Assembly (NCBI GenBank): GCA_963576475.1
Contig: OY754975.1
Span: 15,027,469 to 15,091,468 of the forward strand
DNA from: Molanna angustata
Taxonomy: Eukaryota; Arthropoda; Insecta; Trichoptera; Molannidae
Direction: 5' to 3'
Length of the DNA: 64,000 nucleotides
Each line of letters opens with the position of its first letter. The stretch's first letter is position 1. Shown here piece after piece: positions 25,001 through 31,000 of this stretch. The notes below the pieces were generated by a model. That model saw only the letters and a program-made list of their open reading frames with translations. It ran no database searches and had not been told where the DNA came from. The position numbers were made by a program, and so were the translations under genes.

Positions 25001-28000
25001 GTTGGAGAATTTATAGCTTTTATTATCGGATGGAATCTGATTCTTGAATATGTTATTGGTAAGTTCAATTATTTTCTGTTATGTATACAATTTTTACTTT
25101 ATTTTTTATTAAAACCCAACTAGATTATTTAATTTCTCATATTGTATATTTTATGTAATAGGTTGGATAGAAAGTCTTTTTGCATATAGTATGTATAAAC
25201 TTGTAATGAAATATCTTTGGCTGTACCATTTGTATCTGGCTGGTTTTGATGACATTAAAAAGGTTACATTAAAAAAAAATAGCTGAAGAACTGGGAATAT
25301 TCCACAAAACAGTTTTGACCCATTTGAAAAAAGTTGGGTACAAAAAAAGCTCGATATTTGGGTGCCACATAAGAAACCTAATGAACCGTGTACTCATTTG
25401 GGATTCTTTATTGAGACGTAATGAAACCGAACCATTTTCGAAGAGATTGATAACTGGTGATGAAAAGTGGATTACGTATGACATGAACGTGTGAAAAAGG
25501 CCGTAGTCAGGCTTCACAGATTGTGGCAAAACCCGGATTAACTCGCAATAAGGCGATGCTGTGTGTATGGTGGGATTGGAAGGGCATTGTTCATTATGAG
25601 CTTTACCGCCGGGCAGTAACATCAATTCGGATCTCTATAGCAAGAATTTGAGAAAAAGCGGCCGTAATTGATCAACAGAAAGGGTGTGGTCTTACACCAC
25701 AATAACACTAGACCACACACAGCTTTAGCCACTCAACAAAAATTAACAGAATTTGGCTGGGAGGTGCATCCACCATATAGCCCTGACTTTGCACCTTTCC
25801 ACCTGTTTCAGTCTCTTCAGAATTCTTTAGGCAGTGTCAGGTTAATATCAAGAGAGGACTAAAATTACTTGTCGCATTTTATTGATTAGAAGTTCCAAAA
25901 TTTCTACAGCAACGGGATCATGTCACTACCTACAAGATGGCAGAAAGTCATTAACAAAATGGCACATACATATATACTTTAGTTAAATGTAAATAAACTT
26001 TCTTGAGTTTTCATATAAAATGTGAAGAAACTTTTTCCCCAACCTAATATGTTTTTGAATATTTTTATTATTGCATATGCGCAAACATTGGATTTTTTTC
26101 CCTGTCGGGAGTCAAAGATATTTTTTAACAGATTTTTAATTATCTCAATAGAGACGAAGTTGGAATATTTATTGTAGGAGAACCGGGAAATCAAGGCACC
26201 TACAGGGCTTACGACCTGTCATCGGCTGGTTTACGTGATCACTTTATGCGCTTGCGCAACGTTCACCAATTATGCCTTTTAATGAGATCCCTATCAATTC
26301 AATTTTGAAAGTTCTATATATTGTAATACTGAAATTCTTTTCGCTTGAAAATAAGGAATTTTTACTACAGCCATCTATGGGTGAAATTATGAACAACAAT
26401 CTTATTATTTTTATTTATTTTGTTGGAACGCCATCTATTGAGAGAATTGGTTTTTTTTGTAAATAATGAAAGCTACAATTCTTATATCTGAGGTGACAAT
26501 GCATTTTTCGCATAGAAGTCACCCCTGAATTGCGCCAGACTTATAAGGTCATTTTTGTCTTATTTACCTACTTGTACCAATGTGTAAGTAATCGAATATT
26601 TTTATTATTGCATATGCGCAAACATTGGATTTTTTTCCCTGTCGGGAGTCAAAGATATTTTTTAACAGATTTTTAATTATCTCAATAGAGACGAAGTTGG
26701 AATATTTATTGTAGGAGAACCGGGAAATCAAGGCACCTACAGGGCTTACGACCTGTCATCGGCTGGTTTACGTGATCACTTTATGCGCTTGCGCAACGTT
26801 CACCAATTATGCCTTTTAATGAGATCCCTATCAATTCAATTTTGAAAGTTCTATATATTGTAATACTGAAATTCTTTTCGCTTGAAAATAAGGAATTTTT
26901 ACTACAGCCATCTATGGGTGAAATTATGAACAACAATCTTATTATTTTTATTTATTTTGTTGGAACGCCATCTATTGAGAGAATTGGTTTTTTTTGTAAA
27001 TAATGAAAGCTACAATTCTTATATCTGAGGTGACAATGCATTTTTCGCATAGAAGTCACCCCTGAATTGCGCCAGACTTATAAGGTCATTTTTGTCTTAT
27101 TTACCTACTTGTACCAATGTGTAAGTAATCGAATATTTTTATTATTGCATATGCGCAAACATTGGATTTTTTTCCCTGTCGGGAGTCAAAGATATTTTTT
27201 AACAGATTTTTAATTATCTCAATAGAGACGAAGTTGGAATATTTATTGTAGGAGAACCGGGAAATCAAGGCACCTACAGGGCTTACGACCTGTCATCGGC
27301 TGGTTTACGTGATCACTTTATGCGCTTGCGCAACGTTCACCAATTATGCCTTTTAATGAGATCCCTATCAATTCAATTTTGAAAGTTCTATATATTGTAA
27401 TACTGAAATTCTTTTCGCTTGAAAATAAGGAATTTTTACTACAGCCATCTATGGGTGAAATTATGAACAACAATCTTATTATTTTTATTTATTTTGTTGG
27501 AACGCCATCTATTGAGAGAATTGGTTTTTTTTGTAAATAATGAAAGCTACAATTCTTATATCTGAGGTGACAATGCATTTTTCGCATAGAAGTCACCCCT
27601 GAATTGCGCCAGACTTATAAGGTCATTTTTGTCTTATTTACCTACTTGTACCAATGTGTAAGTAATCGAATATTTTTATTATTGCATATGCGCAAACATT
27701 GGATTTTTTTCCCTGTCGGGAGTCAAAGATATTTTTTAACAGATTTTTAATTATCTCAATAGAGACGAAGTTGGAATATTTATTGTAGGAGAACCGGGAA
27801 ATCAAGGCACCTACAGGGCTTACGACCTGTCATCGGCTGGTTTACGTGATCACTTTATGCGCTTGCGCAACGTTCACCAATTATGCCTTTTAATGAGATC
27901 CCTATCAATTCAATTTTGAAAGTTCTATATATTGTAATACTGAAATTCTTTTCGCTTGAAAATAAGGAATTTTTACTACAGCCATCTATGGGTGAAATTA

Positions 28001-31000
28001 TGAACAACAATCTTATTATTTTTATTTATTTTGTTGGAACGCCATCTATTGAGAGAATTGGTTTTTTTTGTAAATAATGAAAGCTACAATTCTTATATCT
28101 GAGGTGACAATGCATTTTTCGCATAGAAGTCACCCCTGAATTGCGCCAGACTTATAAGGTCATTTTTGTCTTATTTACCTACTTGTACCAATGTGTAAGT
28201 AATCGAATATTTTTATTATTGCATATGCGCAAACATTGGATTTTTTTCCCTGTCGGGAGTCAAAGATATTTTTTAACAGATTTTTAATTATCTCAATAGA
28301 GACGAAGTTGGAATATTTATTGTAGGAGAACCGGGAAATCAAGGCACCTACAGGGCTTACGACCTGTCATCGGCTGGTTTACGTGATCACTTTATGCGCT
28401 TGCGCAACGTTCACCAATTATGCCTTTTAATGAGATCCCTATCAATTCAATTTTGAAAGTTCTATATATTGTAATACTGAAATTCTTTTCGCTTGAAAAT
28501 AAGGAATTTTTACTACAGCCATCTATGGGTGAAATTATGAACAACAATCTTATTATTTTTATTTATTTTGTTGGAACGCCATCTATTGAGAGAATTGGTT
28601 TTTTTTGTAAATAATGAAAGCTACAATTCTTATATCTGAGGTGACAATGCAAATTCAGGGGTGACTTCTATGCGAAAAATGCATTGTCACCTCAGATATA
28701 AGAATTGTAGCTTTCATTATTTACAAAAAAAACCAATTCTCTCAATAGATGGCGTTCCAACAAAATAAATAAAAATAATAAGATTGTTGTTCATAATTTC
28801 ACCCATAGATGGCTGTAGTAAAAATTCCTTATTTTCAAGCGAAAAGAATTTCAGTATTACAATATATAGAACTTTCAAAATTGAATTGATAGGGATCTCA
28901 TTAAAAGGCATAATTGGTGAATGTTGCGCAAGCGCATAAAGTGATCACGTAAACCAGCCGATGACAGGTCGTAAGCCCTGTAGGTGCCTTGATTTCCCGG
29001 TTCTCCTACAATAAATATTCCAACTTCGTCTCTATTGAGATAATTAAAAATCTGTTAAAAAATATCTTTGACTCCCGACAGGGAAAAAAATCCAATGTTT
29101 GCGCATATGCAATAATAAAAATATTCGATTACTTACACATTGGTACAAGTAGGTAAATAAGACAAAAATGACCTTATAAGTCTGGCGCAATTCAGGGGTG
29201 ACTTCTATGCGAAAAATGCATTGTCACCTCAGATATAAGAATTGTAGCTTTCATTATTTACAAAAAAAACCAATTCTCTCAATAGATGGCGTTCCAACAA
29301 AATAAATAAAAATAATAAGATTGTTGTTCATAATTTCACCCATAGATGGCTGTAGTAAAAATTCCTTATTTTCAAGCGAAAAGAATTTCAGTATTACAAT
29401 ATATAGAACTTTCAAAATTGAATTGATAGGGATCTCATTAAAAGGCATAATTGGTGAACGTTGCGCAAGCGCATAAAGTGATCACGTAAACCAGCCGATG
29501 ACAGGTCGTAAGCCCTGTAGGTGCCTTGATTTCCCGGTTCTCCTACAATAAATATTCCAACTTCGTCTCTATTGAGATAATTAAAAATCTGTTAAAAAAT
29601 ATCTTTGACTCCCGACAGGGAAAAAAATCCAATGTTTGCGCATATGCAATAATAAAAATATTCGATTACTTACACATTGGTACAAGTAGGTAAATAAGAC
29701 AAAAATGACCTTATAAGTCTGGCGCAATTCAGGGGTGACTTCTATGCGAAAAATGCATTGTCACCTCAGATATAAGAATTGTAGCTTTCATTATTTACAA
29801 AAAAAACCAATTCTCTCAATAGATGGCGTTCCAACAAAATAAATAAAAATAATAAGATTGTTGTTCATAATTTCACCCATAGATGGCTGTAGTAAAAATT
29901 CCTTATTTTCAAGCGAAAAGAATTTCAGTATTACAATATATAGAACTTTCAAAATTGAATTGATAGGGATCTCATTAAAAGGCATAATTGGTGAACGTTG
30001 CGCAAGCGCATAAAGTGATCACGTAAACCAGCCGATGACAGGTCGTAAGCCCTGTAGGTGCCTTGATTTCCCGGTTCTCCTACAATAAATATTCCAACTT
30101 CGTCTCTATTGAGATAATTAAAAATCTGTTAAATAATATGTTTTTTATTAATATGTATAAACAGATAATTATGAAATTATTATTACTGAATGATTTACAT
30201 TTGTTATGATTAATGTGGAATTTTTTTATTAATCATTATCATTCTTTTATAAATTATTATAATATAAAATTATACTATGGCCTTGATCTTGAAATTTTCA
30301 CTTATTATCTTTACTATACTATGTATCATTAAAGAATATTTTATTTAATTCCGCATATCAGAGTACCTTGTCATAAAGCCATATAGATACACTAAGGATG
30401 GGTTGTTTCAACAAAAGTATTGGTAATAGTACCTATAGTTAAAATACTTTGATTTCATAAAATTGTTCAAAATTGTGTCGTTTTACGGAATTACATTCCA
30501 ATGAAACAGCCAAATGTTTGAATAATTTCATGAAATCAAAGTATTTCAACTATAATTTTACTTTAGTCTTTGTTCGAGAAACACAGCCTAACAAAAATAT
30601 ATTGTCGGCCTTCGTGGCTCAGTTGGTTAGATATCTGACTGCTGAGCCAAAGGTTCCGGGTTCGATTCCCGGTGGAGACACAGTTTTTAATTGTGTTTTC
30701 AGTCTGGATCTGTGAGACGATTAATATCGTAAGTCTCCAGAATGTGGCAACTTGTTATTGGGTGCGTGTTAAATTAATATTTGACATAGTACCAGTTAGC
30801 TGCCCGAGAAACAATATTAAATATTAATATTAAATATAAACAAAATGCAATAAGAGTCAAGCCACCCATTCTTGAACTAGCTATCTTCAGTTTTTGGAGA
30901 GTGGCAAAGCTATGGGCTCTGCTCTCTGCAAATATTTGAGATGCATTGCAAAAACAGGGTAGACTGAGCATTATCCTAAATACATTATTATTTTGCACTC

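Follow-up and report, generated by a model that had tools for sequence, protein, structure and literature searches.

A two-armed block of 537-bp repeats in Molanna angustata: a probable single insertion, templated by a putatively self-cleaving RNA and made by a Penelope-type enzyme

We analyzed a 64,000-nucleotide stretch of the genome of the trichopteran insect Molanna angustata (C11:15027469-15091468; hereafter, the window), which carries a block of 537-bp repeats at positions 26057-30133. The repeat unit has a GC content of 33%, and positions within it are given as q1 to q537. The block is composed of two opposed arms. The left arm (26057-28651, plus strand) begins at q1 (start site 1) and spans 2,595 bp, or 4.83 units, the five pieces of which are mutually identical. 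The right arm (28652-30133, minus strand) is inverted, has its outer end at q68 (start site 2) and spans 1,482 bp, or 2.76 units, with a single mismatch, at 28922, which is the one substitution present across the 4,077 bp of the block. The arms meet at 28651-28652, where q447 is joined to q475 bluntly, with 0 overlap and 0 filler. The inversion of the right arm is the key feature of the block. The approximately 62 nucleotides (nt) between the two start sites (26057-26118, plus strand) include the hairpin TCCCTGTCGGGA at q43-54, and we refer to this segment as the tail, by analogy with the Penelope-like elements (PLEs) as presented in the part of PMC11167929 used here. No open reading frame (ORF) of at least 120 amino acids (aa) was found within the block.

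The 12-mer TAATATGTTTTT borders the block directly on both sides (26045-26056 and 30134-30145, both plus strand), forming a target-site duplication (TSD). Three exact copies of this 12-mer exist on the two strands of the window, the third at 35187. When random flank pairs were drawn for this locus, none of 300 had 12 bp in common, nor did any of up to 200 pairs in a second run. We consider the right boundary to involve microhomology, because the right TSD copy matches the continuation of the unit at 8 of 11 nt.

Every unit carries a putative twister ribozyme of type P5, as judged from its sequence. The minus strand of the unit matched the Rfam model Twister-P5 (RF02684) with an E-value of 0.13 and 20.8 bits. 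The core letters UAA, GC, GGUC and AAGCCC are present without mismatch, P2 and P4 each pair at 4/4 positions, and a 7-bp P5 closes the motif. The T1 pseudoknot, whose location and pairing we assume from known twisters, pairs at 3/3 positions, with CGU/ACG where the consensus has CcC/GgG. Among 5,000 dinucleotide shuffles, not one yielded even a relaxed version of the core. When the unit was folded as a circle, pair probabilities were about 0.9 for P4 and for the greater part of P5. A hammerhead was also looked for, and Rfam gave no match up to an E-value of 5 in 1,301 bp (2.4 units).

In the left arm, the predicted twisters lie on the minus strand. That of unit 1 occupies 26193-26278 (q137-222), and its cleavage would presumably fall between 26233 (U) and 26232 (A), a place that we take from known twisters. 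Those of units 2 and 3 occupy 26730-26815 (Rfam match 26740-26805) and 27267-27352 (Rfam match 27277-27342), and those of unit 4 (27804-27889) and unit 5 (28341-28426, in a unit cut at q447) are assigned from their identity to unit 2 and their core letters. The right arm carries three on the plus strand, at 28905-28990 (innermost, with the 28922 substitution in a T1 strand), 29442-29527 (middle) and 29979-30064 (outermost). The core letters are kept in all eight window copies. Across ten old copies of the unit found in the genome, q140-222 is conserved at 88% compared with 74.5% elsewhere, as roughly estimated from local alignments, and the region of the tail hairpin (q31-60) is conserved at 95% with 2.6-fold coverage.

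We then searched the genome (995 Mb, 131 contigs) with one unit. This gave 103 match rows from the best 40 scored of 136 candidates, a best-scoring sample rather than a census, from which 33 further loci were taken, four of them extended. In total, 37 insertions were analyzed, that of the window included. In 28 of the 37, the outer ends agree with those of the window block: the first lies within 3 nt of q1, and the second, in inverted orientation, falls in q57-80. All but one of these two-ended insertions (27 of 28) are bordered by a TSD of 11-18 bp, most often 12 bp; the exception is L037, which has a 7-bp repeat only, a length met by 5% of random flanks. With up to 200 random flank pairs for each of the 27 loci, the observed TSD length was never reached; in an earlier control with up to 300 pairs, it was reached by 0.7% at L009 and 0.5% at L022. 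The longest random match in the fully printed control set (200 pairs, last locus) was 8 bp. The shortest arm measures 32 bp and the longest 9,039 bp (about 16.7 units, in L016x), and at least one arm exceeds 537 bp in 22 of the 28. A 31-base pattern from the unit had 0 matches in a viral contig set and 0 in a genome contig set, and the array's first 134 bp, used as the query of a DNA search that skips simple and very common words, returned nothing.

The first-pass annotation of the window had described 7.6 near-identical 537-bp units lying exactly between two 12-mers, and both the unit alignment and the flank comparison agree with this. Its title and reasoning captured the array and the TSD; they omitted the inversion of the last 2.76 units, which it named only among the things that could refute it. 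Its proposal that the array came ready-made with its TSD is supported here and at the 27 of 28 two-ended insertions reported above. It also placed a mariner at the insertion site; this was a by-eye reading, and a 23-aa piece of it had no Pfam match.

The 28 inner junctions are all distinct: nine show an overlap of 1-12 bp, two are blunt (the window one included) and 17 contain 1-45 extra nt, which in part, as judged by eye, are copies of sequence close by. Because the junction differs at each of the 28 insertions, the arms appear to be made and joined anew each time. Yet the two arms of a locus are alike. Comparing arm consensus with arm consensus, we found no difference in any of the four loci where both arms hold at least two units (the window, L015, L017x and L026x; in L015, one of three minus-strand units belongs to an adjoining insertion). 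Between loci, consensuses differ by at most 8 substitutions and 13 indel columns, with no difference among the window, L009 and L034, or between L015 and L016x. Variants relative to the family consensus occur in 8 of the 11 loci with at least three units, and in both arms wherever both are readable; for example, they are carried by 7/7 and 6/6 units of the two arms in L017x, and by 1/1 and 17/17 in L016x. The three loci lacking them are the window, L009 and L034, so the sharing of variants between arms cannot be judged in the window block itself. As both arms carry the same locus variants, one monomer sequence seems to have been copied repeatedly from both sides in those loci. L016x and L017x each have one variant set common to the units of both arms, plus scattered changes, a large share of which lie in T-runs.

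Snap-back copying, with one arm serving as template for the other, was considered as a general rule and rejected, because either arm can be much longer than its partner (32 versus 504 bp, 480 versus 9,039 bp, 731 versus 91 bp); it may contribute at near-symmetric junctions.

Alignment of the flanks at the duplications revealed that both strands are preferentially nicked before RTT, where R is a purine (n=27). On one side, T is present in 21, 18 and 16 of 27 at positions +2 to +4, with G in 11 at +1; on the other side, a purine is found in 22 of 27, followed by T in 17 and 20. In these small logos, the cut edges were set at the longest duplication and are blurred by microhomology. The RTT score (maximum 6) averaged 4.30 at the nicks and 1.96 at a distance of three nt outward (n=27). 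Beside each of the two starts, the presumed 11-nt primer matched the template at 4.74 and 5.37 positions, respectively, compared with 3.3-3.4 at random points, a likeness that is partly built in, as duplications were extended to their maximum length. Long interspersed nuclear elements (LINEs) make their first nick at TTTT/AA and start at one A-tail, with scattered second priming sites under twin priming. Unlike this pattern, the RTT preference is symmetric.

The genome also hosts PLEs. In a motif scan of 276 kb (overlaps included), one Penelope-type GIY-YIG domain was found, beside the array of L016x. This separate GIY-YIG fragment scored 26.6 bits, above the cut-off of 22.6, and a search with it yielded 150 scored copies, the best of 9,774 candidates, so that the genome is PLE-rich. 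An 860-aa open frame is present in 8 of the 150 PLE rows, several of them in opposed tandem arrays with a 2,683-bp period. A PLE ORF of 842 aa has a reverse transcriptase (RT) domain at 41.3 bits, above the cut-off, and a GIY-YIG domain at 21.8 bits, just below 22.6. For a mobile-element protein of this genome, the highest-scoring relative with a name comes from the butterfly Parnassius mnemosyne, at 41% identity.

To compare anatomies, 20 two-armed PLE pairs were picked by hand, so that their two-armedness reflects the selection and their end positions do not. L051 was left out, since its left side is an internal unit junction and its true ends are L090/L091. Both ends were matched in 19 of the 20 pairs (L058/L059 lack a left-end match, and two pairs are mutual duplicates). 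In all 19, one end lies at the start of the tail, the other is displaced inward by 30-68 nt, and the TSDs measure 11-14 bp; the random-flank controls cover the 537-bp family only. The PLE RTT score was 3.86 at the nicks versus 2.14 three nt further out, and both sides were exact in 3 of 22 (n=22; L082, one of two identical sites, was left out as a duplicate). The PLE tail overlaps the beginning of its ORF. No ribozyme match was found by Rfam in two PLE stretches, up to the E-values used.

Two side observations concern L016x, the longest array (C22:5093519-5103033; L042:1345-2250). By eye, it sits inside the end of a PLE copy, its left flank being PLE tail and its right flank PLE start. A tRNA-like sequence at L042:1836-1907 (Rfam tRNA, 34.4 bits), perhaps a tRNA-derived short interspersed nuclear element, breaks the PLE copy after the endonuclease domain.

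In our model, the block represents a single insertion: a retrozyme-like element that is non-coding, non-autonomous and bears a twister would have been copied from a circular or multimeric RNA by PLE machinery. We assign this model a probability of roughly 0.78. The two-start anatomy is the published PLE pattern, in which both strands are primed and RT starts are internal, and it is unlike the LINE pattern. Because the block has no ORF of the length given above, the element can be at most a non-autonomous user of that machinery. We hypothesize that the element RNA is read from the minus strand of the forward arm and would carry a twister in each unit. A Penelope-like (GIY-YIG) protein would cut the two strands of the target at points separated by about 12 nt, so that 3' overhangs result, and each 3' end would prime reverse transcription inside the RNA, one at q1, so that the tail of about 62 nt is kept, and the other at about q62-70. 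Both primed strands may then copy the same monomer for several rounds, as would be possible with a circular or multimeric RNA, after which the two cDNA arms would be united by end joining into a forward and an inverted array between the target duplications. We would give even odds to a more ambitious version, in which a twister-made RNA circle undergoes rolling-circle reverse transcription by a Penelope-type enzyme from both ends of a staggered break, the arrays (up to 9 kb per arm) are born in one insertion as two opposed arms, and the ribozyme class is exchangeable among PLE-dependent retrozymes.

Several results weigh against this model. The Rfam score of the twister is below the cut-off of 37.6 bits, the twister descriptor was composed after the Rfam match had been seen, and P2 has a pair probability of only about 0.09 in the circular fold. 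The core letters are kept in 110 of 119 copies from 34 loci (up to five mismatches), which says little because recent copies have diverged by only about 1%. Some old copies carry lesions in the ribozyme, including a 22-nt gap there in L018. Comparison of the unit with five PLE loci (families A and B) revealed no meaningful similarity (best E 0.02), and only 4 of the 27 sites of the 537-bp family have RTT exactly at both nicks. Nine other insertions each lack one of the two ends, and seven of these nine are without a TSD of at least 11 bp (the repeats measure 11 bp in L011, 13 in L028, 9 in L029, and 0-6 in L010, L013, L015b, L032, L038 and L041). In L026x (C14:30304873-30312025), unit-specific variants follow largely the same order in the opposed arms (units 2-5), a mirrored order that a single monomeric circle does not explain; it looks as if a heterogeneous multimeric RNA had been copied twice, or as if gene conversion had occurred between the arms. 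Finally, 12 of 28 insertions have a near-symmetric inner junction (within 32 nt) versus 3.9 when permuted, with 0 of 20,000 permutations as high. No proposed model accounts fully for this excess, although a shared template end could be involved.

These last two observations are also what speaks for a variant of our model, whose odds overlap with its own, in which the same element and machinery use a linear multimeric transcript of an existing array as template and the ribozyme may be idle. We rate this variant a little short of even odds. It gains from the Anolis PLE, for which the portion of PMC11167929 used here describes insertion in vitro without cleavage. It loses from L016x and L017x, in each of which one variant set is common to the units of both arms, and from two of the 56 arm ends, both in right arms (L025 and one copy in the L016x stretch), which stop at q177, next to the predicted cleavage site. 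These stops, one nt from the expected run-off at q176, are a weak hint at a cleaved template.

The remaining explanations involve other machinery or none. The A-run CTGTTAAAAAA at the right end, with primer-template likeness and microhomology there, first suggested to us target-primed reverse transcription by a LINE with twin priming, in which a T-rich first nick would prime at an internal A6 and the second strand elsewhere, giving a 5' inversion. The TSD is of a length that we take to be LINE-like, and the window does contain LINEs that encode endonuclease, RT and RNase H domains. However, in 28 insertions the second start keeps to one place near q537/1, the RTT preference is common to both nicks, unlike the LINE pattern outlined above, the inversion is the rule (28 of 37) and not the exception, and the resident PLEs, the insertions compared here, agree with the family in end pattern, TSD length and target preference. 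We dropped the idea once it was clear that the q1 start is fixed and that the RTT preference is symmetric, and regard it as unlikely. The first-pass annotation had suggested LINE machinery that copied a multimeric RNA or captured a DNA concatemer; the kind of source, an RNA that can be copied round and round, survives in our model, while the LINE machinery is not supported, given the shared nick preference, the fixed outer ends and the same anatomy in resident PLEs. A DNA route, in which an extrachromosomal circle or a foldback DNA transposon went back into the genome through end joining or the action of a transposase, would fit the tandem and inverted arms, the junctions resembling end joining, and a symmetric target preference that recalls integrases. 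Yet the outer ends are offset by about 62 nt, with no terminal inverted repeat at the exact ends, for which reason the foldback transposon was rejected; the right end varies (q57-80), and the junction is particular to each insertion, which means that no fixed DNA unit moves. We find this route very unlikely. The chance that the block grew in place as a satellite, between 12-mers alike by coincidence, or is an assembly artefact, seems close to negligible: arrays and palindromes are often artefacts, but 28 insertions of one anatomy have flanks and TSDs that differ by locus, the shortest measure just 287-652 bp in total, and random flank pairs rarely match at such lengths.

Elsewhere in the window, three old relatives of the unit lie on the minus strand: 9074-9362 (q210-524, 73%), 12130-12243 (q96-214, 90%, spanning most of the ribozyme) and 41438-41504 (q170-234, 75%). 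The one at 12130-12243 is nearly the ribozyme region alone; by eye, a P4 pair is changed and T1 reads CGU/AUG, and Rfam gave no ribozyme match in it up to the E-values used. Beside it, at approximately 11740-11870 on the minus strand, a THAP-like reading made by eye suggests a P-like transposon. The two LINEs (47162-52175 and 53594-58619) have endonuclease, RT and RNase H domains in their second ORF. A perfect (TA)161 run occupies 32839-33161, and a run of 81 T occupies 13609-13689.

The block resembles several known systems, described here from parts of the cited papers. Metazoan non-LTR (long terminal repeat) retrozymes (PMC7229834, which we take to be Cervera and de la Pena 2020) are likewise small AT-rich tandem repeats with one putative self-cleaving ribozyme per unit and a TSD of more than 4 bp around the tandem block (here 11-18 bp), and for both, a circular RNA template and mobilization by PLEs are proposed. 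Metazoan retrozymes are expressed as monomer RNA in both linear and circular form. In PMC7229834, PLEs are put forward as the likely machinery and circles as templates, on the basis of shared ribozymes, tandem copies and co-occurrence. The element described here differs in carrying a twister rather than a type I hammerhead, in its length (537 bp versus 150-450 bp; those elements are non-coding with GC below 50%, and the unit here has the GC content of 33% and the block the lack of a long ORF given above), and in its two inward arms with fixed starts, compared with retrozymes as described in PMC7229834.

From the side of the PLEs, Frangieh et al. 2024 (PMC11167929) describe a PLE protein that cuts and extends both strands, with reverse transcription from two adjacent internal sites and a genomic tail as the stretch between, and Arkhipova et al. 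2013 (PMC3846280) describe tandem and inverted Penelope copies with TSDs of 8-10 bp. Like the Penelope/Poseidon-type PLEs of these papers, in which both strands are cut and extended, our family has two internal RT starts bounding a tail, here read as fixed genomic ends, tandem and inverted copies, an AT-rich target and a (here putative) ribozyme in the repeat. Unlike autonomous PLEs as presented there, it has no RT/GIY-YIG ORF, and its tail is about 62 nt versus 30-40. With the resident PLEs it has no meaningful sequence similarity in the copies compared, and it shares with them the RTT preference and a TSD length range overlapping 11-14 bp, in small samples.

Schistosoma W-elements, as portrayed in PMC8490949, are also satellite-like repeats, some with ribozymes and a possible TSD; they differ in having a hammerhead, a flanking duplication for one element and an unsettled mechanism. 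The RTE LINEs with 5' twister remnants (PMC7761336, 'in preparation') likewise combine a twister with a retroelement, and differ in that the element is an RTE retrotransposon whose twister, at the 5' end, is truncated; the part of that source used here does not mention arrays. No earlier report of a twister retrozyme appeared at the level of titles and abstract openings, a search for which subscription papers and bioRxiv were mostly outside the scope.

Compared with the retrozyme proposal, our analysis would thus add, from sequence, a putative twister where the literature sampled here describes hammerheads, and a two-armed insertion fingerprint common to the resident PLEs, which links retrozyme-like elements to PLE machinery locus by locus. 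It suggests that a satellite-like array need not grow in place and can come complete through a single event, which, if true, would be a novel origin for repeat arrays. It also makes testable which form of the RNA is copied by PLEs, and whether self-cleavage matters.

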